DNA of 64,000 nt, taken from the NCBI RefSeq assembly GCF_900091415.1, contig NZ_FMHU01000002.1, forward strand, positions 558,001 to 622,000, read 5' to 3'. Under the pieces are notes generated by a model. That model was not told the origin of the DNA and did not search any database. It saw only the letters and a program-made list of their open reading frames with translations. This DNA comes from Micromonospora inyonensis. Lineage in GTDB: Bacteria; Actinomycetota; Actinomycetes; Mycobacteriales; Micromonosporaceae. The translations under genes and the position numbers were made by a program. The first letter of the stretch is position 1. Every line of letters begins with the position of its first letter. Positions 1-28,326 of this stretch are shown piece after piece.

Positions 1-544
1 AACTCCCACAGCAACGCCCCACCCGCGAACGTGTCCCGACCCGAGAAATCGGTAGGCGTCAGGCCCTCAGGAACAGACCTCGCCACCGCGCCCGCCACAT
101 ACCGGGCACGGATCGCCACCGCCCCCGACTGGTTACGCGCCGCCCGTAGCGCCGCGACCCGGACCAACGTCGAAGGCTCCACCCGCGGATCAGCACCGTA
201 CGGCGACAACTCGATCACCGCCGCCGCGGGCACACTCACCCCCAACCCACCATCAAGCAACCGCGCCACCAGATCCAGCACACCCTCAGGCCCACGATCG
301 GCGAACGCCAGCACCACCCGCCACACCCCACCACGGCCCTGCGCCTCGTCCAGCAGGACAGCCGCAGGCCGATCCGTCCTCTCACTCGCCCTCGCCGACC
401 ACGCCTCGGCATCCGTCACCGCCTGCCGCTGCGCCACCACAGACAGACCCCGCGGATCAACCTCAGCGCCCACACCATCCGGATACACCACCACCGCCTC
501 GGCGTCCCCGGCAGCACTGGCGACACCCCGAACCGTCAGGAACG
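1..544 (-). repeat. Region R, copy 3 (cut by window edge)
   Basis: The first ~180 residues of region R, matching 18004-18547 with few differences (for example two bases near 215). The gene continues beyond the left edge, so further modules are expected there. Confidence 0.75.
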
Positions 545-3500
545 CGGGAACCGGCCCCGTCGGCCAGGACGATGCCGTGGGGGCGTCCGGGTCGTCCAGC
601 GGCCCGGGCAGCCCGGGCAGCCCTGGCAGACCCGTGCCCGCCGACGAGGCAGGTACCGGCCGCCCGGACATCGGCAACGTACCCCCGTGGTCCAGCCAGG
701 ACGGGTCCTCACCCTGCGGGCGGTCCGGTCCGAGGGCAGGGCCCGGCACCGGTGCTTGCCGGGGCTGACCCGGATCGCTCACCCCGTACCGCGCCGCCAC
801 GCGACCGCGACCTTCCTGGACCAGCTGCAGCAGACCAATGCCGCGCAATGCCCCGATCCGGTCATGCACCGTCCGCCGCGGTGTGGATGTCGCCTCGGCG
901 AGGTCTGACTCGCTGGCGGTGATGATCCCGTTGTCGTCCATATGGTCGATCAGGGCGTGCCACCAATACCGCAGATCATCCCGCTGCCTCGTTGTGGTGG
1001 CGAGGTGGCCGGCGTGCTGGTCGAACAGCGCCCGGGCCTCGCCCGGGTCGCTCACCCGCCGGCTGCCCGCAGTGGGTTGGGGTTGGGGTTGGTCGGGGTG
1101 GAGTGGGGCGGGGGTGGTGGGTGGCTCGTGGGCCGGGTGATGGAGGGTGTCGCCGGTGTGGAGAGTGCCGGCGTCGGTGCGGGCCACCGCCGGCCAGGAC
1201 GACGCGGTGGGGGCGTCCGGGTCGTCCAGCGGGCCTGACAGCCCGGGCAGACCCGTGCCCGCCGGCGGGGCAGGTGCAGGCCCGGACATCGGCGACTGAG
1301 GTGCCGGATCCTGCATGCCCGGTCCGGGCGGGAACGACTGAGTCCCTGGGGACTGGCTGGGCTGGTCGCCGTTGGGCGGCGACCATGATGTCGGGCCGGG
1401 CGGGGCCTGCGGCCGGGGCGGATCCATCGGTTGCGGCGCGGGGTCGGGTTCCGTGCCCACGGCCTCAAGCAGATAGAGCAGATCGGCCGGGTCCACATCG
1501 AGCGAACCGGCTGGGTCCACCTCGTAGGTGGCCCAGTCGCCGAGGTTCCCGCCGTCGCTGGCCTGATCGTCGATGCCCGGCTGGTCGAAGTCGGTGGACA
1601 TCGCCGCACCGTGCCCGTCGGTCACGCCCATGCCGGGTACCGGCCACCCCGGTTCCGCCCACCCCGCCGGCCAGGACGACGCGGTGGGGGCGTCCGGGTC
1701 GTCCAACGGCCCGGGCAGCCCTGGCAGACCCGTGCCCGCCGGCGAGGCAGGTGCAGGCCCGGACATCGGCAACGTACCCCCGTGGTCCAGCCAGGACGGG
1801 TCCTCACCCTGCGGGCGGTCCGGTCCGAGGGCAGGGCCCGGCACCGGTGCTTGCCGGGGCTGACCCGGATCGCTCACCCCGTACCGCGCCGCCACGCGAC
1901 CGCGACCTTCCTGGACCAGCTGCAGCAGACCAATGCCGCGCAATGCCCCGATCCGGTCATGCACCGCCCGCCGCGGTGTGGATGTCGCCTCGGCGAGGGC
2001 TGACTCGCTGGCGGTGATGATCCCGTTGTCGTCCATATGGTCGATCAGGGCGTGCCACCAATACCGCAGATCATCCCGCTGCCTCGTTGTGGTGGCGAGG
2101 TGGCCGGCGTGCTGGTCGAACAGCGCCCGGGCCTCGGCCGGGTCGCTCACCCGCCGGCTGCCCGCAGTGGGTTGGGGTTGGGGTTGGTCGGGGTGGAGTG
2201 GGGCGGGGGTGGTGGGTGGCTCGTGGGCCGGGTGATGGAGGGTGTCGCCGGTGTGGAGAGTGTCGGCGTCGGTGCGGGTCACCGCCGGGGAGGGTGCGAG
2301 GGAGGGTTGCCAGTCGATGTCCGGCCCCTGGTGGGTGGCCCAGTCGCCGAGGTTCCCGCTGCCGGCAACCCGCCCATCCGGCACGGCGGGCAACCCCGCC
2401 AGCCCCGCAGCATCGGACAGGGGCCACAACCGCACCGTCTGGTCCTCGCCGGCGGAGACCAGCACCCGCCCGCCCGACCCCGCCTGCCACGACGTCAACG
2501 CGTACACCGAGCCGGTGTGGCCTTCCAATATCTGGACCTGGCGACCGGTGGCCGGGTCCCAGATCCGCACCGTCCCGTTCCCGTCGGCGGCGGCCACCCG
2601 CCGCTGGCCCGGTGTCTCCTGCCACGACGTCAACGCCAACGCCCCGTCGGTGTGGCCTTCCCACGTCTGGAGCAGGCGACCGGTGGTCGCGTCCCAGATC
2701 CGCACCGTCCCGTCCCAGCTGGCGGAGGCCACCCGCCAGTCCGACCCCGCCTGCCACGACGTCAACGCCGGCACCTCGTTGGTGTGGTCTTCCCACGTCT
2801 GGAGCAGGCGGCCGGTGGTCGCGTCCCAGATCCGCACCGTCTGATCCATGCCGGCGGAGGCCACCCGCCACTGGCCCGACGCCTCCTGCCACGACGTCAA
2901 CGCCAACACCCCGCCGGTGTGGCCTACCAACGTTTGGACCTGGCGGCCGGTGGCCGGGTTCCAGATCCGCACCGTCCGATCCGTGCTGGCGGAGGCCACC
3001 CGCCACTGGCCCGGTGCCTCCTCCCACGACGTCAACGCCGACACCGTGTTGGTGTGGCCTTGCAACGTGTCCTGGCGGCCGGTGGCCGGGTTCCAGATCC
3101 GCACCGTCCGATCCGTGCTGGCGGAGGCCACCCGCCACTCGCCCGGCGTCTCCTCCCACGACGTCAACGCCAACACCCCGCCGGTGTGGTCTTCCCACGT
3201 CTGGACCTGGCGGCCGGTGGTCGCGTCCCAGATCCGCACCGTCCCGTCCTCGTCGGCGGAGGCCACCCGCCATTCGCCCGGCGTCTCCTGCCACGACGTC
3301 AACGCCGACACCGCGTCGGTGTGGCCGGTCAGCAGCTGCGGGGACACCACCGCCGGCGGTGTGCCAGCACCGGTGGGAGCCTGTCCGAGGTGCTGGTCCA
3401 ACTCCGCGGCCGCTGCCTCAACCTCGCCAAGCCGGACCCCCAGCTCTCCGAGGTTGTCCGCAGGCAACGATCTGACGTAGGCGTCCACGGTACGCGACGC

Positions 3501-6500
3501 CCACGCACGGCTGAGATCCATCGCATCCAGGTACCGGTCGACCAGCCCAGCCAAGACGTCGGTCCTACGCTCCGACGGCCCAACGAGGTCCATACGCGCC
3601 GCGTGGCCAACGACAACAGCCTCCCACCGCCCGATCAGATCCTCACGGGCAGCGGCGACCTCGGCGGCGGAAACCTGCACCGTCTGCTCACCTGATCCGG
3701 CGCCCACTGGCTCGGACGACTGCCCCTCCCGAAAATCCGCCGGGTCGGTGGAATCAGGCTGGGCAGCCCCATCCATCCCGGCCAGATCCCGGTGTTCCGG
3801 AACGGTCACGGTCGCGGCGTCTCCCACCATCGACGGCGACCGTGGGACACCCACCCCGTCGGTGGTCGCCACGAACCGCAACCGGGCAGGACGGGCGGGC
3901 CCCCGGGCCAGCCCGCCCCGCTGACCGTCCAGGAACACCACCCTGCCGTCATCGGCGTGCACGACATTGACGGCATGTTGAATCGTGCCGTCCTCACCGG
4001 TCATGACCAGCACACCCCGGGCGCCGGGCTCCGCCGCGGCCATGACCGCCACCACCGCGTCGTAGTCGGCCACCTCCACCAACGGCCGCCCCGCGTACCG
4101 CTGCAACCACACCACCGGCAGCGTCACCTCGGGCGGTACCGTCCAGCCCGCTCTGTCCGCCAACGACATATCAGTACCGATCGCCGTCAGAACGCAGTTG
4201 GTGGCGTAGTCGCCTCCACGGCCCGGGTTCACACCGCCCAGCCAACCGAACCGCACCGACACCTCAACCGCCGACATCTGACTCGGTAGCAGCGGCAGCA
4301 GCACGTCACCGGGTACCGCCTCGCCAGCCACATCCGCTGAGGAGTCCGACCCGACCGATTCGGAGTCGTCTCCCGGATGAACCGGCACGGCGGGCAACCC
4401 CGCCGGCCCGGCAGCACCATCGGGCAGGGACCACAACCGCACCGTCCGGTCGGCGCTGCCGGAGACCAGCACCCGCCGGCCCGACTCGCCCTGCAACGAC
4501 GTCACCGCCCACACCTCGCTGGTGTGGCCCTCGAACGTCAGGAGTTCCTCACCGGTGACCGCGTCCCAGATCCGCACTGTCTGGTCCTCGCTGGTGGAGG
4601 CCACCCGCCAGTCCGACCCTGCCTGCCATGACGTCACCGCCCGCACCGGGTTGGTGTGGCCCTCGAACGTCAGGAGTTCCTCACCGGTGACCGCGTCCCA
4701 GATCCGCACCGTCTGGTCCTCGCTGGCGGAGGCCACCCGCCAGTCCGACCCTGCCTGCCACGACGTCACCGCCCGCACCCAGTCGGTGTGGCCCTCGAAC
4801 GTCAGGAGTTCCTCACCGGTGACCGCGTCCCAGATCCGCACCGTGTGGTCCTCGCTGGCGGAGGCCACCCGTGGGCCCGATTCTCCCTGCCACGACGTCA
4901 CCGCCCGCACCGCGCTGGTGTGGCCTTGCAACGTCTGGAGTTCCTCGCCGGTGGCCGCGTTCCAGATCCGCACCGTCTGGTCCTCGCTGGCGGAGGCCAC
5001 CCGCCAGTCCGACCCTGCCTGCCACGACGTCACCGCCCACACCGCGCTGGTGTGGCCTTGCAACGTCTGGAGTTCCTCGCCGGTGGCCGCGTTCCAGATC
5101 CGCACCGTCTGATCCCAGCTGGCGGAGGCCACCCGCCACTGGCCCGGCGCCTCCTGCCACGACGTCAACGCCAACACCGGGCCGGTGTGGCCTTGCAACG
5201 TGTGGACCTGGCGACCGGTGGCCGCGTCCCAGATCCGCACCGTCCGATCCCAGCTGGCGGAGGCCACCCGCCACTGGCTCGGCGTCTCCTGCCACGACGT
5301 CACCGCTTCCACCGCGCGGGTGTGGCCCTCCAACGTCAGGAACTCCACACCGTCGACCACGTCCACTGATGGTGTGGCGGCACCGGCTCCCACCTGTCCC
5401 AGGTGCTGGCCTCGCTCCGCGGCCGCTGTCCCAATCCGGCCGAACTGGTCCGTCAGCTCCACGCCGCTGGTCGCGGTCACGGGGTCGGGATCGTTTCCTG
5501 CGGCAACCTGCCCATTCGGCACGGCGGACAACCCCGCCGGCCCGGCAGCACCATCGGGCAGGGACCACAACCGCACCGTCCGGTCCCAGCCGGCGGAGAC
5601 CACCACCCGCCGGCCCGAATCGTCCTGCAACGACGCCACCGCCTCCACCGCGCCGTCGTGGCCCTCCAACGTCAGGAGTTCCTCACCGGTGACCGCGTCC
5701 CAGATCCGCACTGTCCGGTCCTCGCTGGCGGAGGTCACCCGCCACTGGCCCGGCGCCGCCTGCCACGACGTCACCGCCCCCACCGGGTTGGTGTGGCCCT
5801 CCAACGTCAGGAGTTCCTCACCGGTGACCGCGTCCCAGATCCGCACCGTCTGATCCGTGCTGGCGGAGGCCACCCGCCACTGGCCCGGCGCCGCCTGCCA
5901 CGACGTCACCGCCCCCACCGGGTTGGTGTGGCCCTCCAACGTCAGGAGTTCCTCACCGGTGACCGCGTCCCAGATCCGCACCGTCTGATCCGTGCTGGCG
6001 GAGGCCACCCGCCACTGGCCCGGCGCCGCCTGCCACGACGTCACCGCCCCCACCGTGTCGGTGTGGCCCTCCAACGTCTGGAGTTCCTCGCCGGTGGCCG
6101 CGTTCCAGATCCGCACCGTCCGGTCCGCGCTGGCGGAGGCCACCCGCCAGTCCGACCCTGCCTGCCACGACGTCACCGCCCACACCCAGTCGGTGTGGCC
6201 CTCCAACGTCAGGAGTTCCTCACCGGTGACCGCGTCCCAGATCCGCACCGTCTCATCCGTGCTGGCGGAGGCCACCCGCCACTGGCCCGGCGCCGCCTGC
6301 CACGACGTCACCGCCCACACCCAGTCGGTGTGGCCCTCCAACGTCAGGAGTTCCTCACCGGTGACCGCGTCCCAGATCCGCACCGTCTGATCCGTGCTGG
6401 CGGAGGCCACCCGCCACTGGCCCGGCGCCGCCTGCCACGACGTCACCGCCCCCACCGTGTCGGTGTGGCCCTCCAACGTCAGGAGTTCCTCACCGGTGAC

Positions 6501-9500
6501 CGCGTCCCAGATCCGCACCGTCTGATCCGTGCTGGCGGAGGCCACCCGCCACTGGCCCGGCGCCGCCTGCCACGACGTCAACGCCAACACCGTGCTGGTG
6601 TGGCCCTCCAACGTCTGGAACTCCACACCGTTGACCACGTCCGCTGGTGGTGTGGCGGCACCGGCTCCCGCCTGTCGGAGGTGCTGGTCCAACTCCGCGG
6701 CGGCTGCCTCGACCTGGCCAAGCCGGCCGGTCAACGCCGTGAGGTCGGACACCGATCGGACGTACTGGCTGATGTCGTGCGACTGTCGCGCGAGTCTGAG
6801 GTCCCGCATCCCGTCGAGGTACCGGCGGGACAGCGCGTCCAGGACGGACCGTTCCTGGCTGTCGTTCTGGCCGCGGTCGGTCGCGGGCGGTAGCGCCCTC
6901 TCAGCGGTTCCAAGCCTGTCAACGCGCTGCTCGTGGCCGCGGCCAAGGGCTTCCCACCGTTGGATGAGATGCCCGGTGAAGGTGGCCGCACCACCGAGAG
7001 CGGAGGCATGAACGTCATCGACGAACAACGGATAGAACGTGCCCATTTCCTCGGCGGACGGGCCGAGCCGGCCACCGGAACCGGGTGAGACGAACTCGAC
7101 CAACATCAACGGGGTGTTCCCGTCCCGTCCCACCACCGGGTGTCCATACCACCTGCGGTCGTTTCCTTGTTCGACGACCTGGACCCGTACCTGGAAAGAC
7201 TCCGCGAACTCGTTCAGGAACCCATTCGAGTACACGTCGGCGCCGCGCCCGGACCGCAGGTCCCGGATCACCACATGATCGGAACCCAGCCGCTGTTCCA
7301 TCAGGTTCAGCAGCGTCCTCGCGCGGGTCTCCTCGTTGTCGAACCCGGGATACGCGCCCGGCCGCAGGACATTCAGGGTTTGCGCCAACGAGTCCAGCAG
7401 ACACAGTAGTCCCTCACCCCGGCGGTCACCCCGGTGCATCCATTCCGGCAGACCCCCCGCCGACGGTTGCCCTCCGACCGGAGCCACGCCCTGCGGGCCG
7501 GCCACCCACTCGTGAACAACCTGGCCATCCCCGGCGGGTGGTGTCGGTGCGGGTGGTGGTGTGGTCACGCCGGTCTGTCCCTGCGACACCGCTGCCGGAG
7601 CCGGCAACAACCGGATCTGATCCTCCAACCACTGCCGTGCCAGCCCGAACGCGTTCACCGCGGAGAACAACTCGGCGCGCTGCTGCTCGGGCAGATCCGG
7701 CACCCGCCCTACCACGTTCACCTGCTCGGGTAGTAGCGGCACGCCAAGGTTCTCCCGCAGCCGGCCGACCTGCTCTAGCGGGCCGTCCGCCGACCACAAC
7801 AACGCCACGTCCCCGCCATGATCAGCCAGGAACCGGGTGAACTCCTCCCCGTTCTGAGACCGCACGGAGGACAAGTCGACATACTGCCGCCCATCGAGTG
7901 TGTGAAGCATGACCGGCCGGTCCGGTGCCCGAGAGAAGGCCCAGGCGGCCAGATACACCGCCCGTAACACGTCCCGGACGGCGTCCGGGACCGTCGTGTT
8001 CCCTCGGGGCGAGCCGGTCACCGGTGCCACCACTGCGGCCCATACCCGCTCGATCTGCTCCGCGATCAGGCCTTCGACCTCATCGGTCAACCGCGTCGGC
8101 GGCAACGCCGTCACCAACCGCTGATTGTCGGGGTGCCTGGCCCACGCCTCCAGCCGCAGATCGAGCCGATCCGTTCCCGCGGCCTCATCCACCCACCCGT
8201 GGGTATGTTGGACCAACCGCTCACCCAACGCCGCCAGCTGACCCACCCGCTCACCCATCCGGCGATGCGCCCGCACCCCGACCGTGCCGTCGGTGTCCGG
8301 GTCTGACAGGTCGACCGCCACCGGATCCGTCACGGTCACATCGGGAAGCGCTACCGTCAGCTCCGCTTCCCGAGCCCGCCATGCCTCAGCCGCCCCGCCC
8401 GGTCGCACCGCCGCCGCGATCGTGGGCAACTCGGCCCGCACACGAGTCCACCCCTCCGCCTCGGCGAGATTCGACACCTCCCGTATGCCGACCGGCGGCT
8501 GGCCGGTGACCATCTCACCCATCCGCACCGGCCACAGGTCGTCCTCCGCCACATGCGCCAACACCACCGGCGACGCCAGCCCACCGAACCCGTGCACCAC
8601 CACATACACCGGTTCCCGCAACCCCGACTCCACCGGCGGCAACGCACTGTTCAGGAACGTGTCGAACAACGTCGACACGACCGCCCCGGGATGCACCGGC
8701 CGTGACTGCGGCACACCCACCACGAACACCCGCGCACCATCCGGCACCCACCCCACCGGCCCCACGTCCGGCGTCGCCGAGGCCACACTCTCTCCGTGCA
8801 ACTCCGCCTGCCGCAGCTCCACCACCCGCCAACGACCAAGCCCTGACGACGGCACCGGAGGGAACACCCAATTCCGCATATACGAGGCCGCCCGCTGCCC
8901 GAACCGCGCCCAACGCCGATCCGTCGGCAGGAGGTACGGCGCATGCTCACCGGGCAATCCCGCCACCTCCCGCCAGAACACAGCCGCACGGGCCTCGCCC
9001 GGACGCATCGGACGGGCCTGGAACTCCCACAGCAACGCCCCACCCGCGAACGTGTCCCGACCCGAGAAATCGGTAGGCGTCAGGCCCTCAGGAACAGACC
9101 TCGCCACCGCGCCCGCCACATACCGGGCACGGACCGCTACCGCCCCCGACTGGCCACGCTCCGCCCGCATCGCCGCGACCCGGACCAACGTCGAAGGCTC
9201 CACCCGCGGATCAGCACCGTACGGCGACAACTCGATCACCGCCGCTGCGGGCACCGTCACCCCCAACCCACCATCAAGCAACCGCGCCACCAGATCCCGC
9301 ACACCCTCAGGCCCACGATCGGCGAACGCCAGCACCACCCGCCACACCCCACCACGGCCCTGCGCCTCGTCCAGCAGGACAGCCGCGGGCCGATTCGTCC
9401 TCTCACTCGCCCTCGCCGACCACGCCTCGGCATCCGTCACCGCCTGCCGCTGCGCCACCACAGACAGACCCTGCGGATCAACCTCAGCGCCCACACCATC

Positions 9501-12500
9501 CGGATACACCACCACCGCCTCGGCGTCCCCGGCAGCACTGGCGACACCCCGAACCGTCAGGAACGGCTCACCAGAGGCCACCGTCACCGCTTCGGGGTCG
9601 TTACCCGCGGCAACCTGCCCACCCGGCACGGCGGGCAACCCCGCCAGCCCCGCAGCATCGGACAGGGGCCACAACCGCACCGTCTGGTCCTCGCCGGCGG
9701 AGACCAGCACCCGCCCGCCCGACCCCGCCTGCCACGACGTCAACGCGAACACCGGCCCGGTGTGGCCTTGCAACGTGTGGACCGGGCGACCGGTGGCCGG
9801 GTCCCAGATCCGCACCGTCTCATCCGCGCTGGCGGAGGCCACCCGCCACTGGCCCGGCGTCTCCTCCCACGACGTCAACGCCGACACCCCGTCGGTGTGG
9901 CCTCGCAACGTCTGGACCTGGCGGCCGGTGGTCGCGTCCCAGATCCGCACCGTCCAATCCGCGCTGGCGGAGGCCACCCGCCACTGGCCCGGCGTCTCCT
10001 GCCACGACGTCAACGCCAACACCCCGTCGGTGTGGTCTTCCCACGTCTGGAGCAGGCGACCGGTGGTCGCGTCCCAGATCCGCACTGTTTGATCCCAGCT
10101 GGCGGAGGCCACCCGCCACTGGCCCGGCGTCTCCTGCCACGACGTCAACGCCGTCACCTCGTTGGTGTGGTCTTCCAACGTGTGGAGCAGGCGACCGGTG
10201 GTCGCGTCCCAGATCCGCACTGTTTGATCCCAGCTGGCGGAGGCCACCCGCCACTGGCCCGGCGTCTCCTGCCACGACGTCAACGCCGTCACCTCGTTGG
10301 TGTGGTCTTCCAACGTGTGGAGCAGGCGACCGGTGGCCGCGTCCCAGATCCGCACTGTTTGATCCCAGCTGGCGGAGGCCACCCGCCACTGGCCCGGCGT
10401 CTCCTGCCACGACGTCAACGCCGTCACCTCGTCGGTGTGGCCTTCCAACGTGTGGACCTGGCGACCGGTGGTCGCGTCCCAGATCCGCACCGTCCCGTCC
10501 TCGTCGGCGGAGGCCCCCCGCCGCTGGCCCGGCGTCTCCTGCCACGACGTCAACGCCAACACCGCGTCGGTGTGGCCGGTCAGTAGCTGCGGGGACACCG
10601 TCGCCAGCGGTGTGCCAGCACCGGTGGGAGCCTGTCCGACGTGCTGGTCCAACTCCGCGGCCGCTGCCTCAACCCGGGCAAGCCGGCCACCCAACTCCCC
10701 GACACTGGTCGCGGTCACCGCTTCGGGGTCGTCATTCGCGGCAACCCGCCCACCCGGCACGGCGGGCAACCCCGCCAGCCCCGCGGCATCACCGAGCCGC
10801 ACCGTCTCCAGGTACGCCCGAAGGGTGGCGGGTCCATCGTCGAGGGACCGCCACGTGGCCACATCCGGTGGCCGTTCTGAAAGTGGTGCCACGGTCGGGA
10901 ATGCGGGTGAGGGGTGCGGCGCTGCCGGTTGGCCCGTACGGTCCGGCGTGGATGCCGGTGGCGCGACCAGCTCGGTCCACACCTCACCACGGTCCGGCGT
11001 GGATGCCGTCGTGGGGACAACTGCCGGGCCGGGCGTGACCGGGGTGGCGGGAAGGTTCAGGGCGACGGTCCGGCGGTGCCAGGGCCCTGCGACACCGTCG
11101 TTGTCGTGGTACCCCGATTCGGCCGGGGTCACGGTGATGTTGACGGCGAACGCCTCGGACATCAGGTGTAGGAGCGCCCTCGTGAGGTGGGGAACCGACG
11201 TCCCGCGCGCCGCCAGGGCCTGCCGCAGCGTGTCCACGTCCGCCTCGGACAGTCCAGCCCTTTCCGCGAGGTCCGTTCGGCCGACGATCCGGTCGAACTC
11301 GTGGTGCAGATATCCGCGGACATCTACGGCTGATGGTGCCGATATCCGCTCATCCAAGGACGCCGTGACCTCCACCCGCGCCACCTCGATGACTTGCGTG
11401 AACAACCGGTCCCACGCGTCTGACCGCACCAGCCCGACCGGCAGGGAGGGTAACGACGGGGGCCGGGCAGCCCCATCCATCCCGGCCAGATCCCGGTGTT
11501 CCGGAACGGTGACGGTCGCGGCGTCTCCCACCGTCGACGGCGACCGGGGGACACCCACCCCGTCGGTGGTCGCCACGAACCGCAACCGGGCAGGACGGGC
11601 GGGCCCCCGGGCCAGCCCGCCCGACTGACCGTCCAGGAACACCACCCTCCCGTCATCGGCGTGCACCACGTTGACGGCATGTTGAATCGTGCCGTCCTCA
11701 CCGGTCATGACCAGCACACCCCGGGCGCCGGGCTCCGCTGCGGCCATGACCGCCACCACCGCGTCGTAGTCGGCCACCTCCACCAACGGCCGCCCCGCGT
11801 ACCGCTGCAGCCACACCACCGGCAGCGTCACTTCGGGCGGTACCGTCCAGCCCGCTCTGTCCGCCAGCGACATGTCAGTACCGATCGCCGTCAGAATGCA
11901 GTTGGTGGCGTAGTCGCCTCCACGGCCCGGGTTCACACCGCCCAGCCAACCGAACCGGACCGACACCTCAACCGCCGACATCTGACTCGGCAGCAGCGGC
12001 AGCAGCACGTCACCGCGTCCCGCCTCGCCAGCCACATCCGCTGAGGAGTCCGACCCGACCGATTCGGAGTCGTCTCCCGGGTGAACCGGCCCGGCGGGCA
12101 ACCCCGCCGGCCCGGCAGCACCATCGGACAGGGACCACAACCGCACCGTCCGGTCGGCGCTGCCGGAGACCAGCACCCGCCGGCCCGACTCGCCCTGCAA
12201 CGACGTCAACGCCCACACCGCGCCGTCGTGGCCCTCCAATGTCAGGAGTTCCTCGCCGGTGGCCGCGTCCCAGATCCGCACCGTGTGGTCCGCGCTGGCG
12301 GAGGCCACCCGCCAGTCCGACCCTGCCTGCCACGACGTCACCGCCTCCACCGGGTTGGTGTGGCCCTCCAATGTCAGGAGTTCCTCGCCGGTGGCCGCGT
12401 CCCAGATCCGCACCGTGTGGTCCGCGCTGGCGGAGGCCACCCGCCAGTCCGACCCTGCCTGCCACGACGTCACCGCCCGCACCGGGTTGGTGTGGCCCTC

Positions 12501-15500
12501 CAATGTCAGGAGTTCCTCGCCGGTGGCCGCGTCCCAGATCCGCACTGTCTGGTCCTCGCTGGCGGAGGCTACCCGCCACTGGCCCGGCGCCGCCTGCCAC
12601 GACGCCAACGCCTCCACCGTGTCGGTGTGGCCCTCCAATGTCAGGAGTTCCTCGCCGGTGGCCGCGTCCCAGATCCGCACTGTCCGGTCCCTGCTGGCGG
12701 AGGCTATCCGCCAGTCCGACCCTGCCTGCCACGACGCCAACGCCTCCACCGGGTCGGTGTGGCCCTCCAATGTCAGGAGTTCCTCGCCGGTGGCCGCGTC
12801 CCAGATCCGCACTGTCCGGTCCCTGCTGGCGGAGGCTATCCGCCAGTCCGACCCGGCCTGCCACGACGCCAACGCCCACACCGTGTTGGTGTGGCCTCTC
12901 AGCGTCAGGAGTTCCTCGCCGGTGGCCGCGTCCCAGATCCGCACTGTCCGGTCCCTGCTGGCGGAGGCCACCCGTGGGCCCGACTCTCCCTGCCACGACG
13001 TCACCGCCATCACCATGTGGGTGTGGCCCTCCAATGTCAGGAGTCCCTCGCCGGTGACCGCGTCCGAGATCCGCACCGTTTGGTCCCAGCCCCCGGCGGA
13101 GGCCACCCGTGGGCCCGACTCTCCCTGCCACGACGTCACCGCCTCCACCGCGCGGGTGTGGCCCTCCAAAGTCCGGAACTCCACACCGTCGACCACGTCC
13201 ACTGATGGTGTGGCGGCACCGGCTCCCACCTGTCCGAGGTGCTGGCCCCGCTCCGCGGCCGCTGTCCCGATTTGGCCGAACTGGTCCGTCAGCTCGACGA
13301 CGCTGGTCGCGGTCACGGGGTCGGGGTCGTTTCCCGCTGGAGAGGGTGCGAGGGATGGTTGCCAGTCCATGTCCGGCCCCTGGTGGGTGGCCCAGTCGCC
13401 GAGGTTCCCGCTGCCGGCAACCCGCCCACCCGGCATGGCGGGCAACCCCGCCGGCCCGGCAGCACCATCGGGCAGGGGCCACAACCGCACCGTCCGGTCC
13501 CCGCTGGCGGAGACCACCACCCGCCGGCCCGACTCGCCCCGCAACGACGTCACCGCGTGCACCTGGCCGGTGTGGTCCCTCAACGTCCGGAGTTCCTCAC
13601 CGGTGACCGCGTCCCAGATCCGCACCGTCCGGTCCTCGCTGGCGGAGGCCACCCGCCAGTCCGACCCCGCCTGCCACGACGTCAACGCCCCCACCGTGTC
13701 GGTGTGGCCCTCCAACGTCAGGAGTTCCTCACCGGTGACCGGGTCCCAGATCCGCACTGTCCGGTCCCTGCTGGCGGAGGCCACCCGCCAGTCTGACCCC
13801 GCCTGCCACGACGTCACCGCCCGCACCCAGTCGGTGTGGCCCTCCAACGTCCGGAGTTCCTCACCGGTGACCGCGTCCCAGATCCGCACCGTCCGATCCT
13901 CGCTGGCGGAGGCCACCCGCCACTGGCCCGGCGTCTCCTGCCACGACGTCACCGCCCGCACCGCGCTGGTGTGGCCCTCCAACGTCAGGAGTTCCTCACC
14001 GGTGACCGGGTCCCAGATCCGCACCGTCCGGTCCCTGCTGGCGGAGGCCACCCGCCAGTCCGACCCCGCCTGCCACGACGTCACCGCCCACACCGCGCTG
14101 GTGTGGCCCTCCAACGTCAGGAGTTCCTCACCGGTGACCGCGTCCCAGATCCGCACCGTCCGGTCCTCGCTGGCGGAGGCCACCCGTGGGCCCGACTCTC
14201 CCTGCCACGACGTCACCGCCCGCACCGCGCTGGTGTGGCCCTCCAACGTCAGGAGTTCCTCACCGGTGACCGCGTCCCAGATCCGCACCGTTTGGTCCCA
14301 GCCCCCGGCGGAGGCCACCCGTGGGCCCGACTCTCCCTGCCACGACGTCACCGCCTCCACCGCGCGGGTGTGGCCCTCCAAAGTCCGGAACTCCACACCG
14401 TCGACCACGTCCACTGATGGTGTGGCGGCACCGGCTCCCACCTGTCCGAGGTGCTGGCCCCGCTCCGCGGCCGCTGTCCCGATTTGGCCGAACTGGTCCG
14501 TCAGCTCGACGACGCTGGTCGCGGTCACGGGGTCGGGGTCGTTTCCCGCTGGAGAGGGTGCGAGGGATGGTTGCCAGTCCATGTCCGGCCCCTGGTGGGT
14601 GGCCCAGTCGCCGAGGTTCCCGCTGCCGGCAACCCGCCCACCGGGCACGGCGGGCAACCCCGCCGGCCCGGCAGCACCGTCGGGCAGGGACCACAACCGC
14701 ACCGTCTGGTCGTCGCCGGCGGAGACCACCACCCGCCGGCCCGAATCGTCCTGCCACGACGTCACCGCTCCCACCGTGTCGGTGTGGCCCTCGAACGTCA
14801 GGAGTTCCTCACCGGTGACCGGGTCCCAGATCCGCACTGTCCGGTCCCTGCTGGCGGAGGCCACCCGCCAGTCCGACCCCGTCTGCCACGACGTCACCGC
14901 TCCCACCGTGTCGGTGTGGCCCTCGAACGTCAGGAGTTCCTCACCGGTGACCGGGTCCCAGATCCGCACTGTCCGGTCCCTGCTGGCGGAGGCCACCCGC
15001 CAGTCCGACCCCGTCTGCCACGACGTCACCGCCCCCACCGTGTCGGTGTGGCCCTCGAACGTCCGGAGTTCCTCACCGGTGACCGGGTCCCAGATCCGCA
15101 CTGTCCGGTCCTCGCTGGCGGAGGCCACCCGCCAGTCCGACCCCGCCTGCCACGACGTCACCGCCCGCACCCAGTCGGTGTGGCCCTCCAACGTCCGGAG
15201 TTCCTCACCGGTGACCGCGTCCCAGATCCGCACCGTCCGGTCCTCGCTGGCGGAGGCCACCCGCCACTGGCCCGGCGTCTCCTGCCACGACGTCACCGCC
15301 CGCACCGCGCTGGTGTGGCCCTCCAACGTCAGGAGTTCCTCACCGGTGACCGCGTCCCAGATCCGCACCGTCCGGTCCCTGCTGGCGGAGGCCACCCGTG
15401 GGCCCGACTCTCCCTGCCACGACGTCACCGCCCGCACCGCGCTGGTGTGGCCTCTCAACGTCAGGAGTTCCTCACCGGTGACCGCGTCCCAGATCCGCAC

Positions 15501-18500
15501 CGTCCGGTCCCAGCCCCCGGCGGAGGCCACCCGTGGGCCCGACTCTCCCTGCCACGACGTCACCGCCTCCACCGCGCGGGTGTGGCCCTCCAAAGTCCGG
15601 AACTCCACACCGTCGACCACGTCCACTGATGGTGTGGCGGCACCGGCTCCCACCTGTCCGAGGTGCTGGTCCAACTCCGCGGCCGCTGCCTCAACCCGGC
15701 CAAGCCGTCCACTCAACGCCGCGGTGTCGGACACCGATGGGACGTACTCGCTGATGTCCTGCGACTGCCGCGCGAGTCTGAGGTCCCGCATCCCGTTGAG
15801 GTACCGGCGGGACAGCCCATCCAGGACGGACCGCTCCTGGCTGTCGTCCTGGCCGCGGTCGGTCGCGGGCGGTAGCGCCCTTTCAGCGGCTTGAAGCCTG
15901 TCAATGCGATCCGCGTGGCTACGGCCAAGCGCTTCCCACCGTTGGATGAGGTGCCCGGTGAAGGTGGCCGCACCACCGAGAGCGGAGGCATGAACGTCAT
16001 CGACGAACAACGGATAGAACGTGCCCATTTCCTCGGCGGACGGGCCGAGCCGGCCACCGGAACCGGGTGACACGAACTCGACCAACAACAACGGGGTGTT
16101 CCCGTCCCGTCCCACCACCGGGTGTCCATACCACCCGCGGTCGTCTCCTTGTTCGACGACCTGGACCCGTACCTGGAAAAACTCCGCCAACTCGTTCAGG
16201 AACCCACCCGAGTACACGTCGGCGCCGCGCCCGGACCGCAGATCCTGGATCACCACATGATCGGAACCCAGCCGCTGTTCCATCAGGTTCAGCAGCGCCG
16301 TCGCGCGGGTCTCCTCGTTGTCGAACCCGGGATACGCGCCCGGCCGCACGGCATTCAGGGTTTGCGCCAACGAGTCCAGCAGACACAGTAGTCCCTCACC
16401 CCGGCGGTCACCCCGGTGCATCCACTCCGGCAGACCCCCCGCCGACGGTTGCCCTCCGACCGGAGCCACGCCCTGCGGCCCGGCCACCCACTCGTGAACA
16501 ACCCGGCCATTCCCGACCGGTGGTGTCGGTGCGGGTGGTGGTGTGGTCACGCCGGTCTGCCCCTGCGACACCGCCGCCGGAGCCGGCAACAACCGGATCT
16601 GATCCTCCAACCACTGCCGCGCCAGCCCGAACGCGTTCACCGCGGAGAACAACTCGGCGCGCCGCTGCTCGGGCAGATCCGGCACCCGCCCCACCACGTT
16701 CACCCGCTCGGGTAGTAGCGGCACGCCAAGGTTCTCCCGCAGCCGGCCAACCTGCTCTAGCGGACCGTCCGCCGACCACAACAACGCCACGTCCCCGCCA
16801 TGATCAGCCAGGAACCGGGTGAACTCCTCCCCGTTCTGAGACCGCACGCGGGACAGATCAACATACTGCCGCCCATCGAGTGCGTGAAGCACGACCGGCC
16901 GGTCCGGTGCCCGAGAGAAGGCCCAGGCGGCCAGATACACCGCCCGTAACACGTCCCGGACGGCGTCCGGGACCGTCGCGTCCCCTCGGGGCGAGCCGGT
17001 CACCGGTGCCGCCGCCGCGGCCCACACCCGCTCGATCTGCTCCGCGATCAGGCCTTCGACCTCATCGGTCAACCGCGTCGGCGGCAACGCCGTCACCAAC
17101 CGCTGATTGTCGGGGTGCCTGGCCCACGCCTCCAGCCGCAGATCGAGCCGATCCGTTCCCGCGGCCTCATCCACCCACCCGTGGGTATGTTGGACCAACC
17201 GCTCACCCAACGCCGCCAGCTGACCCACCCGCTCACCCATCCGGCGATGCGCCCGCACCCCGACCGTGCCGTCGGTGTCCGGGTCTGACAGGTCGACCGC
17301 CACCGGATCCGTCACGGTCACATCGGGAAGCGCTACCGTCAGCTCCGCTTCCCGAGCCCGCCATGCCTCAGCCGCCCCGCCCGGTCGCACCGCCGCCGCG
17401 ATCGTGGGCAACTCGGCCCGCACACGAGTCCACCCCTCCGCCTCGGCGAGATTCGACACCTCCCGTATGCCGACCGGCGGCTGGCCGGTGACCATCTCAC
17501 CCATCCGCACCGGCCACAGGTCGTCCTCCGCCACATGCGCCAACACCACCGGCGACGCCAGCCCACCGAACCCGTGCACCACCACATACACCGGCTCCCG
17601 CAACCCCGACTCCACCGGCGGCAACGCACTGTTCAGGAACGTGTCGAACAACGTCGACACGACCGCCCCGGGATGCACCGGACGCGACTGCGGCACACCC
17701 ACCACGAACACCCGCGCACCATCCGGCACCCACCCCACCGGCCCCACGTCCGGCGTCGCCGAGGCCACACTCTCCCCGTGCAACTCCGCCTGCCGCAGCT
17801 CCACCACCCGCCAACGACCAAGCCCTGACGACGGCACCGGAGGGAACACCCAATTCCGCATATACGAGGCCGCCCGCTGCCCGAACCGCGCCCAACGCCG
17901 ATCCGTCGGCAGGAGGTACGGCGCATGCTCACCGGCCAATCCCGCCACCTCCCGCCAGAACACAGCCGCACGGGCCTCGCCCGGACGCATCGGACGGGCC
18001 TGGAACTCCCACAGCAACGCCCCACCCGCGAACGTGTCCCGACCCGAGAAATCGGTAGGCGTCAGGCCCTCAGGAACAGACCTCGCCACCGCGCCCGCCA
18101 CATACCGGGCACGGATCGCCACCGCCCCCGACTGGTTACGCGCCGCCCGTAGCGCCGCGACCCGGACCAACGTCGAAGGCTCCACCCGCGGATCAGCACC
18201 GTACGGCGACAACTCGACAACCGCCGCCGCGGGCACACTCACCCCCAACCCACCATCAAGCAACCGCGCCACCAGATCCAGCACACCCTCAGGCCCACGA
18301 TCGGCGAACGCCAGCACCACCCGCCACACCCCACCACGGCCCTGCGCCTCGTCCAGCAGGACAGCCGCAGGCCGATCCGTCCTCTCACTCGCCCTCGCCG
18401 ACCACGCCTCGGCATCCGTCACCGCCTGCCGCTGCGCCACCACAGACAGACCCCGCGGATCAACCTCAGCGCCCACACCATCCGGATACACCACCACCGC

Positions 18501-21500
18501 CTCGGCGTCCCCGGCAGCACTGGCGACACCCCGAACCGTCAGGAACGGCTCACCAGAGGCCACCGTCACCGCTTCGGGGTCGTTACCCGCGGCAACCCGC
18601 CCACCCGGCCCGGCGGGCAACCCCGCCCGCCCCGCGGCATCGGACAGGGGCCACAACCGCACCGTCGCGTCGTGGCCGGCGGAGACCAGCACCTGCCCGC
18701 CCGACCCCGTCTGCCACGACGTCAACGCGAACACCGGGCCGGTGTGGCCTTCCAACGTCTGGATCTGGCGACCGGTGGTCGGGTCCCAGATCCGCACCGT
18801 CAGATCCCTGCCGGCGGAGGCCACCCGCCACTGGCCCGGCGTCTCCTGCCACGACGTCAACGCCCTCACCACGTTGGTGTGGCCTTCCAACGTGTGGACC
18901 TGGCGACCGGTGGTCGGGTCCCAGATCCGCACCGTCCGATCCGCGCTGGCGGAGGCCACCCGCCACTGGCCCGGCGTCTCCTGCCACGACGTCAACGCCT
19001 CCACCCCGCTGGTGTGGCCCTCCAACGTCTGGACCTGGCGGCCGGTGGCCGGGTCCCAGATCCGCACCGTCAGATCCCTGCCGGCGGAGGCCACCCGCCA
19101 CTGGCCCGGCGCCTCCTGCCACGACGTCAACGCCCTCACCACGTTGGTGTGGCCTTCCAACGTGTGGACCTGGCGGCCGGTGGTCGGGTCCCAGATCCGC
19201 ACCGTCCGATCCGCGCTGGCGGAGGCCACCCGCCACTGGCCCGGTGTCTCCTGCCACGACGTCAACGCCAACACCGTGCCGGTGTGGCCTTCCAACGTGT
19301 GGACCTGGCGACCGGTGGCCGGGTCCCAGATCCGCACCGTCCGATCGCTGCTGGCGGAGGCCACCCGCCACTGGCCCGGTGTCTCCTGCCACGACGTCAA
19401 CGCCGACACCGGGCCGGTGTGGCCTTCCAACGTGTGGACCTGGCGACCGGTGGCCGGGTCCCAGATCCGCACCGTCAGATCCCTGCCGGCGGAGGCCACC
19501 CGCCACTGGCCCGGCGTCTCCTGCCACGACGTCGACGCCCACACCGTGCCGGTGTGGCCGGTCAGTAGCTGCGGGGACACCACCGCCGGCGGTGTGGCAG
19601 CATCGGTGGGAGCCTGTCCGACGGGCTGGTCCACCTCCATAGCCGCTGCCTCAACCCGGCCAAGCCGGCCACTCAACTCCCCGACACTGGTCGCGGTCAC
19701 CGCTTCGGGGTCGTTTCCCGCTGGAGAGGGTGCGAGGGAGGGTTGCCAGTCCATGTCCGGCCCCTGGTGGGTGGCCCAGTCGCCGAGGTTCCCGCTGCCG
19801 TCGCCGGCCTGATTGTCGATGCTCGGCTGGCCGAAGTCGTCGGACGTCGCAGCACCGTGCCCGTCGGTCACACCGATGCCGGGAACCGGCCCCGTCGGCC
19901 AGGACGATGCCGTGGGGGCGTCCGGGTCGTCCAGCGGCCCGGGCAGCCCGGGCAGCCCTGGCAGACCCGTGCCCGCCGACGAGGCAGGTACCGGCCGCCC
20001 GGACATCGGCAACGTACCCCCGTGGTCCAGCCAGGACGGGTCCTCACCCTGCGGGCGGTCCGGTCCGAGGGCAGGGCCCGGCACCGGTGCTTGCCGGGGC
20101 TGACCCGGATCGCTCACCCCGTACCGCGCCGCCACGCGACCGCGACCTTCCTGGACCAGCTGCAGCAGACCAATGCCGCGCAATGCCCCGATCCGGTCAT
20201 GCACCGTCCGCCGCGGTGTGGATGTCGCCTCGGCGAGGTCTGACTCGCTGGCGGTGATGATCCCGTTGTCGTCCATATGGTCGATCAGGGCGTGCCACCA
20301 ATACCGCAGATCATCCCGCTGCCTCGTTGTGGTGGCGAGGTGGCCGGCGTGCTGGTCGAACAGCGCCCGGGCCTCGCCCGGGTCGCTCACCCGCCGGCTG
20401 CCCGCAGTGGGTTGGGGTTGGGGTTGGTCGGGGTGGAGTGGGGCGGGGGTGGTGGGTGGCTCGTGGGCCGGGTGATGGAGGGTGTCGCCGGTGTGGAGAG
20501 TGCCGGCGTCGGTGCGGGCCACCGCCGGCCAGGACGACGCGGTGGGGGCGTCCGGGTCGTCCAGCGGGCCTGACAGCCCGGGCAGACCCGTGCCCGCCGG
20601 CGGGGCAGGTGCAGGCCCGGACATCGGCGACTGAGGTGCCGGATCCTGCATGCCCGGTCCGGGCGGGAACGACTGAGTCCCTGGGGACTGGCTGGGCTGG
20701 TCGCCGTTGGGCGGCGACCATGATGTCGGGCCGGGCGGGGCCTGCGGCCGGGGCGGATCCATCGGTTGCGGCGCGGGGTCGGGTTCCGTGCCCACGGCCT
20801 CAAGCAGATAGAGCAGATCGGCCGGGTCCACATCGAGCGAACCGGCTGGGTCCACCTCGTAGGTGGCCCAGTCGCCGAGGTTCCCGCCGTCGCTGGCCTG
20901 ATCGTCGATGCCCGGCTGGTCGAAGTCGGTGGACATCGCCGCACCGTGCCCGTCGGTCACGCCCATGCCGGGTACCGGCCACCCCGGTTCCGCCCACCCC
21001 GCCGGCCAGGACGACGCGGTGGGGGCGTCCGGGTCGTCCAACGGCCCGGGCAGCCCTGGCAGACCCGTGCCCGCCGGCGAGGCAGGTGCAGGCCCGGACA
21101 TCGGCAACGTACCCCCGTGGTCCAGCCAGGACGGGTCCTCACCCTGCGGGCGGTCCGGTCCGAGGGCAGGGCCCGGCACCGGTGCTTGCCGGGGCTGACC
21201 CGGATCGCTCACCCCGTACCGCGCCGCCACGCGACCGCGACCTTCCTGGACCAGCTGCAGCAGACCAATGCCGCGCAATGCCCCGATCCGGTCATGCACC
21301 GCCCGCCGCGGTGTGGATGTCGCCTCGGCGAGGGCTGACTCGCTGGCGGTGATGATCCCGTTGTCGTCCATATGGTCGATCAGGGCGTGCCACCAATACC
21401 GCAGATCATCCCGCTGCCTCGTTGTGGTGGCGAGGTGGCCGGCGTGCTGGTCGAACAGCGCCCGGGCCTCGGCCGGGTCGCTCACCCGCCGGCTGCCCGC

Positions 21501-24500
21501 AGTGGGTTGGGGTTGGGGTTGGTCGGGGTGGAGTGGGGCGGGGGTGGTGGGTGGCTCGTGGGCCGGGTGATGGAGGGTGTCGCCGGTGTGGAGAGTGTCG
21601 GCGTCGGTGCGGGTCACCGCCGGGGAGGGTGCGAGGGAGGGTTGCCAGTCGATGTCCGGCCCCTGGTGGGTGGCCCAGTCGCCGAGGTTCCCGCTGCCGG
21701 CAACCCGCCCATCCGGCACGGCGGGCAACCCCGCCAGCCCCGCAGCATCGGACAGGGGCCACAACCGCACCGTCTGGTCCTCGCCGGCGGAGACCAGCAC
21801 CCGCCCGCCCGACCCCGCCTGCCACGACGTCAACGCGTACACCGAGCCGGTGTGGCCTTCCAATATCTGGACCTGGCGACCGGTGGCCGGGTCCCAGATC
21901 CGCACCGTCCCGTTCCCGTCGGCGGCGGCCACCCGCCGCTGGCCCGGTGTCTCCTGCCACGACGTCAACGCCAACGCCCCGTCGGTGTGGCCTTCCAACG
22001 TCTGGAGCAGGCGACCGGTGGTCGCGTCCCAGATCCGCACCGTCCCGTCCCAGCTGGCGGAGGCCACCCGCCACTGGCCCGGCGCCTCCTCCCACGACGT
22101 CAACGCCGTCACCTCGTCGGTGTGGCCTTGCAACGTCTGGAGCAGGCGACCGGTGGTCGCGTCCCAGATCCGCACCGTCTCGTCCTCGCCGGCGGAGGCC
22201 ACCCGCCACTGGCCCGGCGCCTCCTGCCACGACGTCAACGCCGACACCTCGTCGGTGTGGTCTTCCCACGTCTGGAGCAGGCGGCCGGTGGTCGGATCCC
22301 AGATCCGCACCGTCTCGTCCTCGTCGGCGGAGGCCACCCGCCACCGGCCCGGCGCCTCCTGCCACGACGTCAACGCGTTCACCCTGGTGCGGTCTTGCCA
22401 CGTCTGGACCTGGCGGCCGGTGGTCGCGTCCCAGATCCGCACCGTCCCGTCCCAGTTGGCGGAGGCCACCCGCCACCGGCCCGGCGCCTCCTGCCACGAC
22501 GTCAACGCGTTCACCCTGGTGCGGTCTTCCCACGTCTGGACCTGGCGGCCGGTGGTCGGGTCCCAGATCCGCACCGTCTCGTCCTCGCCGGCGGAGGCCA
22601 CCCGCCATTCGCCCGGCGCCTCCTGCCACGACGTCACCGCCAACACCTGGCCGGTGTGGCCGGTCAGCAGCTGCGGGGACACCACCGCCGACGGTGTGGC
22701 AGCATCGGTGGGAGCCTGTCCGACGGGCTGGTCCAACTCCGCTGCCTCAACCCGGCCAAGCCGGCCACTCAACTCCCCGACACTGGTCGCGGTCACCGCT
22801 TCGGGGTCGTCATTCGCGGCAACCCGCCCACCCGGCACAGCGGGCAACCCCGCCAGCCCCGCGGCATCGGACAGGGGCCACAACCGCACCGTCTGGTCGG
22901 TGCCGGCGGAGACCAGCACCCGCCCGCCCGACCCCGCCTGCCACGACGTCAACGCGAACACCGAGCCGGTGTGGCCTTCCAACGTGTGGACCTGGCGACC
23001 GGTGGCCGGGTCCCAGATCCGCACCGTCCCGTTCCCGTCGGCGGCGGCCACCCGCCGCTGGCCCGGTGTCTCCTGCCACGACGTCAACGCCAACGCCCCG
23101 TCGGTGTGGCCTTCCAACGTCTCGAGCAGGCGACCGGTGGTCGCGTCCCAGATCCGCACCGTCCCGTCCCAGCTGGCGGAGGCCACCCGCCATTCGCCCG
23201 GTGTCTCCTGCCACGACGTCAACGCCGACACCCCGCTGGTGTGGCCTTCCCACGTCTGGAGCAGGCGACCGGTGGTCGCGTCCCAGATCCGTACCGTCTC
23301 GTCCTCGCTGGCGGAGGCCACCCGCCATTCGCCCGGCGCCTCCTGCCACGACGTCAACGCCAACACCCAGCCGGTGTGGCCTCGCAACGTCTGGACCTGG
23401 CGGCCGGTGGCCGGGTCCCAGATCCGTACCGTCTCATCCGTGCTGGCGGAGGCCACCCGCCACTGGCCCGGCGTCTCCTGCCACGACGTCAACGCCGACA
23501 CCGTGTTGGTGTGGCCTTGCAACGTGTGGACCTGGCGGCCGGTGGTCGGGTCCCAGATCCGCACCGTTTGATCCCGGCTGGCGGAGGCCACCCGCCACTG
23601 GCCCGGCGTCTCCTGCCACGACGTCAACGCCATCACCCCGTGGGTGTGGCCTTGCAACGTGTGGACCTGGCGGCCGGTGGTCGCGTCCCAGATCCGCACC
23701 GTCCCGTCCTCGTCGGCGGAGGCCACCCGCCATTCGCCCGGCGTCTCCTGCCACGACGTCACCGCCGACACCGCGTCAGTGTGGCCGGTCAGCAGCTGCG
23801 GGGACACCACCGCCGACGGTGTGGCAGCATCGGTGGGAGCCTGTCCGACGGGCTGGTCCAACTCCGCTGCCTCAACCCGGCCGAGCCGGCCACTCAACTC
23901 CCCGACACTGGTCGCGGTCACCGCTTCGGGGTCGTCATTCGCGGCAACCCGCCCACCCGGCACGGCGGGCAACCCCGCCAGCCCCGCGGCATCACCGAGC
24001 CGCACCGTCTCCAGGTACGCCCGAAGGGTGGCGGATCCATCGTCGAGGGACCGCCACGTGGCCACATCCGGTAGCCGTTCTGAAAGTGGTGCCACGGTCG
24101 GGAATGCGGGTGAGGGGTGCGGCGCTGCCGGTTGGCCCGTACCGTCCGGCGTGGATGCCGGTGGCGCGACCAGCTCGGTCCACACCTCACCACGGTCCGG
24201 CGTGGATGCCGTCGCCTGGACAACTGCCGGGCCGGGCGTGACCGGGGTGGCGGGGAGGTTCAGGGCGACGGTCCGGCGGTGCCAGGGCCCTGCGACACCG
24301 TCGTTGTCGTGGTACCCCGATTCGGCCGGGGGCACGGTGATGTTGACGGCGAACGCCTCGGACATCAGATGTAGGAGCGCCCTCGTGAGGTGGGGAACCG
24401 ACGTTCCGCGCGCCGCGAGGGCCTGCCGCAACGTGTCCACGTCCGCCTCGGACAGACCAGCCCTTTCCGCGAGGTCCGTTCGGCCGACGATCCGGTCGAA

Positions 24501-28255: not shown

Positions 28256-28326
28256 CCCGATCACCCTCCTCTGGTTACCTCACGGCCGACCGTGGCGGCG
28301 GTTCACCACCCCGACACCACACACGT

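Follow-up and report, generated by a model that had tools for sequence, protein, structure and literature searches.

Five diversifying codons in the WD40 propellers of a giant gene of Micromonospora inyonensis

Known systems and the giant gene gA

The subject of this work is gA, a giant gene of Micromonospora inyonensis that lies for its greater part in a 64,000-nucleotide stretch of DNA (the window, bases 558001-622000 of contig C2 in a genome of 6.92 Mb and four contigs) and that encodes a series of WD40 propellers. Among the described systems it recalls most the NWD/HNWD genes of the fungus Podospora anserina (het-d, het-e, and het-r). In the excerpts of the study on these genes considered here (PMC1805685), codons 7, 9, 25, and 27 of the repeat are under strong positive selection and are paired around the conserved codons 8 and 26, the selected codons map to the d-a loop and to the b-c turn, and 69 repeats make 55 combinations. 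Highly repetitive WD40 proteins are also found in prokaryotes, and according to the excerpted parts of their account the hotspot sites are diverse while the remainder is conserved (Hu et al. 2017, PMC5587647). High blade identity is shared by the WRAP propellers (PMC9218822, in excerpt), and the most similar consecutive blades named in the excerpted literature, 47 in number, belong to a fungal NACHT protein. The papain-fold domain Tox-PL1 (PF15644) is usually a cargo of type VII secretion systems (T7SS), and its internal copies are likely auto-processing peptidases while C-terminal copies are proposed to act as toxins, as stated in the part of the survey used here (Zhang et al. 2012, PMC3482391).

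gA is a single open frame on the minus strand (C2:554121-585995, 31.9 kb) and holds 79 WD40 blades in eleven propellers, nine of seven and two of eight blades. As in the fungal genes, the WD40 arrays have high internal identity and many combinations, and units are exchanged between paralogues. The positions correspond as well, as far as the excerpted fungal account goes: fungal codons 7 and 9 match blade columns 17 and 19 of gA around valine 18, codons 25 and 27 match columns 38 and 40 around aspartate 39, and column 16 is an additional variable site in gA. Unlike the fungal receptors, which are NACHT NTPases, gA is bacterial, has eleven closed propellers and papain-like domains, belongs to a T7SS-linked family, and gave no match to a NACHT or STAND NTPase in Pfam scans of 16 pieces (about 7,470 of 10,624 residues, E up to 0.1, and for two of the propeller pieces among the 25 best families; the remainder of the protein is mostly propellers). 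Because no NACHT domain was found, gA is not an NWD receptor. The analogy to fungal HET/NWD receptors, which an earlier note had drawn from the letters of this DNA, thus holds for the mode of evolution and the binding face, where the paired positions match, but not for the family, given also that the carrier is a giant from a secretion-linked family, which the note had not seen.

T7SS polymorphic toxins with Tox-PL1, in the portion of PMC3482391 considered, resemble gA in being actinobacterial, modular, and recombining. The NC-H-DGQ signature of the domain is intact in all three internal copies of gA, and some of its kin lie in ESX operons. In contrast to these toxins, gA has no recognised WXG/LXG-type head, no C-terminal toxin domain, and no recognised immunity gene, it combines internal Tox-PL1 copies with diversifying propellers, and it lies outside a T7SS locus while its paralogue gB lies inside one. 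The excerpted accounts of the repetitive prokaryotic WD40 proteins and the WRAP propellers contain neither a many-propeller giant nor a codon selection test nor a T7SS link, and no paper treating WD40 propellers and type VII secretion together was among the matches listed for the open-licence literature, preprints excluded. Diverse hotspots in repetitive WD40 proteins (PMC5587647) and Tox-PL1 in T7SS cargo (PMC3482391) are, by the same excerpts, already known. As far as literature searches show, the new elements are the eleven propellers on an ESX-linked giant family, a codon selection test in a bacterium, with a second species showing the same pattern, and the correspondence with the paired fungal codons.

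Five hypervariable codons in the blades

Seventy-two of the blades, in ten propellers (eight of seven and two of eight), lie within the window from position 23822 down to 2424 on the minus strand (residues 1392-8524), which is exactly the number that the earlier note had counted. Its description of the blades as near-identical and almost invariant in DNA does not hold for all 72, whose mean pairwise identity is 64% at the amino acid level (33-100%) and 79% at the nucleotide level, but it does hold for neighbouring blades, which differ by 6.7% at first and second codon bases outside the five codons described below. The blades belong to two backbone subfamilies (RQ/RL and EEL), and the terminal blades of each propeller diverge from the inner ones. 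With a WD40 propeller fold and blade identity above about 60%, gA falls into the WRAP-like class. A DNA pattern of the blade matched 134 times genome-wide and the reversed control not once, and therefore chance is excluded for the blade array.

In the alignment of 45 columns, the entropy over 52 inner blades is highest at columns 19, 17, 38, 40, and 16 (3.04 to 2.19 bits), followed by columns 9, 27, and 30 (1.97, 1.85, and 1.70 bits). The five top columns are arranged in the blade as GHT-16-17-V-19-A and 38-D-40, where D is the aspartate of the tetrad, and the same five rank highest within the 26 RQ/RL blades. The residues that the earlier note had listed for the first three sites are correct, with six at column 16 (D in 24 blades, G in 16, N in 13, S in 11, R in 6, and H in 2), ten at column 17, and exactly the 13 named ones at column 19; the sites before and after the aspartate, which it had also called variable, show ten and eight residues, respectively. 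Large segmental duplications have copied several blades, and the 72 blades therefore reduce to 60 distinct five-residue signatures.

The codons are NNC at column 16 and mostly NNG at the other four columns. Their third base has a single value in 87-100% of the blades compared to 51-83% predicted by the codon usage of the neighbourhood, and pairwise differences at first, second, and third bases amount to 0.60, 0.60, and 0.10 at the five codons versus 0.15, 0.12, and 0.14 elsewhere. In 42 adjacent inner pairs, which are not independent of each other, the differences at first and second bases are 0.438 at the five codons versus 0.067 elsewhere, and those at third bases 0.043 versus 0.061. Three of these pairs have no difference at all over 117-120 first and second bases outside the five codons. 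Among eleven near-identical full-length inner pairs (at most two backbone differences), five have 2-9 base changes within the five codons, and in four of these five the backbones are the same. In ordinary WD40 proteins of the same genome column 38 is nearly fixed and some third bases vary, in a set of just six blades that is too small to serve as a control.

An otherwise conserved frame in which a few codons are hypervariable but keep their third base is also typical for targets of diversity-generating retroelements, and a retroelement or a similar targeted mutator might write the five codons. NNC and NNG codons with fixed third bases are the expected outcome of adenine-targeted mutagenesis of AAC and AAG, and such a process would suit the pairs whose 117-120 backbone bases are unchanged while the five codons carry 2-5 changes. 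We nevertheless consider it very unlikely. No adenine-rich template was found, as the 14 matches to an all-A pattern (up to three mismatches) are all in gA and in gC, another giant of this genome. Nine of the ten reverse transcriptase matches in the genome were looked at. Seven of the eight opened together carry a QGxxxSP motif, which we take to be the mark of the group II intron type, and the eighth is a short frame, while the ninth, a 520-aa frame (L161, G000:C1:2281000-2285500, where G000 is this genome), is of another type and has no blade-like repeat by eye and no blade near it. gA thus differs from the retroelement targets in having neither a template repeat nor a suitable reverse transcriptase among those opened, and it also has dozens of variable units and biased residues. 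The base mix at the sites is non-random (at column 16 the first base is never T and the second only A or G), and the synonymous rate is ordinary.

Substitutions were counted on trees of 50 inner blades, from which p2b2 and p2b3 were dropped for a deletion at the site and in which recombination was ignored. The first tree has 5 synonymous and 121 nonsynonymous changes at the five codons (ratio of nonsynonymous to synonymous rates, dN/dS, of 7.8) and 55 and 114 elsewhere (0.75). A second tree, built with the five codons left out, has 5 and 145 changes (9.3) versus 51 and 108 elsewhere (0.77). P values for single codons range from 0.0003 to 0.051 on the first and from 3e-05 to 0.09 on the second tree. 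Per site, the synonymous rate at the five codons is 1.42 versus 1.79 in the rest and the nonsynonymous rate 11.1 versus 1.3, which is about eight times higher. Because the synonymous rate is ordinary, the excess is confined to amino acid change, and selection is therefore favoured over a locally raised mutation rate. The five codons are under strong diversifying selection, and the rest of the blade is kept alike by duplication and recombination, both inside a giant and from one giant to another. The per-codon comparison that the earlier note had proposed thus places the five codons at the top of the 45 columns with 121 nonsynonymous to 5 synonymous changes, and its idea of a rapidly diversifying binder is supported by a dN/dS of about 8-9 against 0.75 in the rest, with binding as the presumed function.

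The same counts bear on a neutral origin, according to which the repeats are young, a few positions are unconstrained, and recombination has homogenised everything else. The large recent duplications and the segments common to several giants would suit such a scenario, but the ratio of 121 to 5, where the expected nonsynonymous share is 0.69-0.86, makes it highly improbable. In addition, the duplicated segments outside the WD40 arrays (six pairs from the Tox-PL1 regions and a module termed M) all stay below 1, with pN/pS values, the corresponding ratio of pairwise differences, of 0.15-0.68, of which the value for M copies c and a rests on two changes. Ten of the 55 possible propeller pairs were compared; one is identical and nine have a pN/pS of 0.85-2.67, seven of these above 1. 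This contrast comes partly from breakpoints inside the arrays, for example in propellers 2 and 10, whose last two blades are almost exactly common and whose first five are not.

In a structure model of propeller 4 (mbded001ab6cd; predicted local distance difference test score, pLDDT, of 94), which matches 2ymu and the structures of WRAP and WDR5 propellers, the five variable columns fall into the d-a loop and the b-c turn, and thus onto the binding face of the propeller. They are not buried, which was the second point that the earlier note had wanted to see on a predicted propeller. The propellers are best read as diversifying recognition heads, which would contact their partners through this modelled face. 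An escape from binding instead of a search for it would leave the same signature in the sequence, if the faces were bound by phages, competitors' proteins, or host defences and if the protein were a surface-exposed stalk or adhesin, and its size and repeats may indeed recall surface fibres. Such an escape is unlikely because the five most variable columns are all at the binding face while other exposed columns vary less overall (although column 27 exceeds column 40 in the EEL blades), and because the winged helix-turn-helix (HTH) units of sister giants (see below) have a variable recognition helix, which points to binding.

Architecture and genomic place of gA

The frame of gA has 10,624 aa counted from the first GTG (window 27995) and about 10,610 aa from the ATG at 27953, which we prefer by eye based on an AAGG-type ribosome site and on the start of gC. 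From this ATG the gene covers window positions 1..27953 on the minus strand, as do all features below, and runs about 3.9 kb further left of the window to G000:C2:554121. It begins with an N-terminal domain of about 316 aa (27006..27953), which contains a long hydrophobic stretch at residues ~128-159 and has no Pfam or NCBIfam match. A CpnT-like head for the giants finds no support, since the five matches of PF25547 in the genome do not include them. A Pro/Ala-rich stretch follows and precedes Tox-PL1 copy a (24786..25178; Pfam E 1.7e-08; NC, H, and DGQ at residues 963-1056). The other two copies, b (11586..11963; E 2.2e-08) and c (3912..4298; E 1.6e-08), also have NC, H, and DGQ, and the outer limits of all three are approximate. 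Propellers 1 (22878..23822) and 2 (21759..22697), both of seven blades, are followed by two winged-HTH units (21198..21467 and 20103..20372), for which the Pfam scan gave HTH_43 in two stretches of the scanned piece (E 2.7e-10). After propeller 3 (18651..19595, seven blades) comes copy a of module M (15738..18548, about 940 aa), which includes a GLLCLLDSLAQ stretch and has homologues in other Micromonospora. The modelled propeller 4 (14691..15623) and propeller 5 (13479..14411) have seven blades each, and propeller 6 (12135..13199) has eight. Tox-PL1 copy b then precedes propeller 7 (9669..10613, seven blades), module M copy b (6753..9533, 95% identical to copy a in amino acids), and propellers 8 (5565..6641, eight blades) and 9 (4431..5363, seven blades). 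Tox-PL1 copy c, propeller 10 (2424..3362, seven blades), and two further winged-HTH units (1863..2132 and 768..1037) complete the part in the window; here too HTH_43 matched in two stretches of the scanned piece (E 3.7e-10). Left of the window are a third copy of module M, propeller 11 with seven blades, which is identical to propeller 4, and a last winged-HTH unit. The last 188 residues of gA have no Pfam match to a toxin family.

Module M has no Pfam match above the cut-off in copies a and b. Its structure model (pLDDT 37.6) is too poor for use, a comparison of its last part with the sequences of solved structures yielded no significant match (best E 1.2), and in a profile search the 60 matches listed out of 775 are all on its WD40 part.

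gA is a mosaic of its own duplications, such as two segments of 4.0 kb that are 99.9% identical and two of 5.0 kb with 93.7% identity, and the segment bearing the winged-HTH units has a duplicate that is identical across 620 codons. Blocks of this kind are hard to assemble, and the 32-kb gene could in principle be a product of misjoined near-identical repeats. However, the frame is open across 31.9 kb, independent genomes hold similar arrays, and P0004 (Micromonospora sp. CPCC 206060) has the same module M at about 77% identity together with different blades, so that an assembly product is highly improbable as well.

By eye from the predicted proteins, gA stands alone in a region of respiratory and trp genes and is flanked by ctaC/ctaF on one side and by trpD, ctaE, and qcr genes. 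In all nine relatives fetched, out of 13 searched, ctaF and trpD are only ~0.1-1.0 kb apart, and gA is therefore an insertion. The 32-kb gene has largely replaced the spacer (window 27995-28620 and, at the other end, beyond the left border), and similarity to genome G132 at this site is restricted to ~107 bases counted from where ctaF ends and to 98 bases on the trpD side. A target-site duplication was not recognised by eye.

Relatives, type VII secretion, and sister arrays

The N-terminal domain of gA is present in 15 of 151 genomes of the genus, in eight of them at E below 1e-80, and in this genome it heads at least 14 other frames of 531-19,120 aa. The 14 copies listed are 92-100% identical, with 14 of 36 candidates scored and gB not included. 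gB is a 19,109-aa frame of 57 kb (G000:C1:178960-236289, L012-L015) with few WD40 blades and the same N-terminal domain as gA, and it closes an operon that also encodes EccC, EccD, EccB, and three proteins of the WXG100 type, of which a single one is above the Pfam cut-off. Full EccC genes number three in the genome. The genomes G071, G132, and G006 have EccC, EccD, EccB, and WXG100 genes that are 88-97% identical to those of the gB operon, the same small genes next to them, and then a giant with the N-terminal domain. In total, giants with a gA-type N-terminal domain end an ESX operon at four of the ten loci examined. At all four of these loci a 1,039-1,109-aa protein without Pfam match (L015:7236-10565, with like genes in L080, L083, and L086) sits together with 123-aa, 113-aa, and YbaB-like proteins between the WXG100 genes and the giant. 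gC, a 6,402-aa frame, is flanked by transposase-like genes, as judged by eye.

Strong propeller relatives (at least 58% identity among the matches listed) are found in G148, G071, and G132. The Micromonospora genome G148 has 217 blades by pattern search over about 140 kb, which are built on a different backbone (EESGRRLLASAS, DAADGR) and are variable at the columns known from gA. The blades are thus not frozen across species; identical blades in distant strains were what the earlier note had named as speaking against rapid turnover. In two places of G148, L114 (G148:C1:831001-847000) and L116-L117, trpD and a WD40 giant are spread over more than one reading frame, in pieces that overlap or follow one another, and this points to indel errors in the assembly. 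The counts in G148 were made by single blades only. Over 16 conserved core codons, gA and G148 blades differ by 0.054 and gA blades among themselves by 0.051 (50 gA blades; 80 of 170 G148 blades drawn). A strict species-specific homogenisation is therefore rejected, as it holds only for the outer and loop columns. For a horizontal transfer of the family between the two genomes there is no clear signal either way, with synonymous differences (pS) of 0.179 for module M and 0.17 for the N-terminal domain, values at the lower edge of the range of five neighbouring housekeeping genes (0.175-0.354).

Taken together, it is slightly more probable than an even chance that gA is a giant of an ESX-exported or ESX-anchored family with Tox-PL1 processing, in which the propellers serve as selected and recombining recognition heads. 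The N-terminal domain would address the giant to the ESX type VII machine; we propose export because the paralogue gB with the same domain ends an ESX operon. The internal Tox-PL1 domains might cleave the giant into fragments or serve as its warheads. Each propeller would recognise a partner that is itself variable, in all likelihood a protein from competing or kin bacteria. Point changes retained by selection would create new specificities, and these would spread as blades, propellers, and paralogues exchange sequence by unequal crossing-over and gene conversion. Alternatively, gA could be a cytosolic sensor of the NLR/STAND type whose propellers detect invaders and whose papain-like domains are suicide effectors. 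The variable codon pairs are those of the fungal NWD sensors, papain-like domains could well be death effectors, and gA has no ESX neighbours. Such a sensor is quite unlikely, however, given that the scanned pieces contain no NACHT/STAND NTPase and that the N-terminal domain is ESX-linked in four genomes and has a long hydrophobic stretch.

Several observations weigh against gA as an exported giant with diversifying recognition heads. At six of the ten giant loci (gA, gC, and four in G148) no ESX genes were found, at a threshold of E 1e-10 for both sides of gC, the left side of gA, and the four G148 loci and by eye on the right side of gA. Among the known T7SS signal families (WXG, LXG, LDXD, CpnT-like) the N-terminal domain has no match, and gA terminates in a winged-HTH unit (residues 10535-10624) instead of a toxin domain. 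By eye the neighbours of gA look like housekeeping genes and none was recognised as an immunity gene, where no immunity library was searched. Concerning the blades, the trees take no account of recombination, column 40 taken alone misses significance on the second tree (P 0.09), and on the first tree an excess of nonsynonymous changes is also present at column 3, which is not one of the five (none synonymous, nine nonsynonymous, P 0.026). In the 26 EEL blades column 27, which lies in the a-b loop, varies more than column 40, and six of the eleven near-identical inner pairs have no change at the five codons. Column 40 is also less variable in the G148 blades, and the 30 blades of gC and gB have a nearly invariant G at columns 16 and 40 (in 23 and 28 blades, respectively), so that only columns 17, 19, and 38 vary freely.

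The propellers are not the only arrays that follow the N-terminal domain. Seven loci of this genome (L163, L164, L165, L167, L168, L172, and L173) encode arrays of 5-15 near-identical winged-HTH units of about 90 aa behind the same domain. By pattern there are 87 such units including the five of gA, four of which are inside the window. Their variation is centred on the start of the recognition helix (placed by eye), at columns 51-55 and 59, and the third bases are fixed; in 68 units of equal length, first, second, and third bases differ by 0.19, 0.42, and 0.04 at the variable columns versus 0.04, 0.08, and 0.03 elsewhere. G148 shows the same variation in 22 units; with the pattern used, no such arrays were found in the giants of G132, G006, and G071 or at the other G148 loci. 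Two further giants (L166 and L170) have arrays of a different, helical HTH-like unit of about 86 aa, which in 16 units is most variable at positions 77 and 81 within an NLINxQTVGxYW stretch. Judged from their sequences, the winged-HTH arrays are possibly modular DNA readers. No paper on winged-helix arrays turned up in the open-licence literature, preprints excluded, and the winged-helix sister giants may be a larger finding than the propellers.

More tentatively, and with the balance of probability somewhat against it, Micromonospora could have an exported recognition repertoire, in which a T7SS-linked N-terminal domain is placed on giants of about 2,000-19,000 aa with module arrays of several folds (WD40 propellers, winged-helix units, and a further HTH-like unit), the contact residues diversify under selection while the scaffold is homogenised, and propellers read proteins while winged-helix arrays read DNA. 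If true, this repertoire would combine counterparts of immune-receptor families and of TALE-like arrays within a single secreted system of bacteria. The solution of the fungal receptors, homogenised blades with a few selected codons at the top face, has arisen in a bacterium too, and on a wholly different carrier. The gA family thus offers a testable system for recognition repertoires that are made without a dedicated mutator and, if the sister winged-helix arrays bind DNA, it would be a new kind of modular DNA reader.

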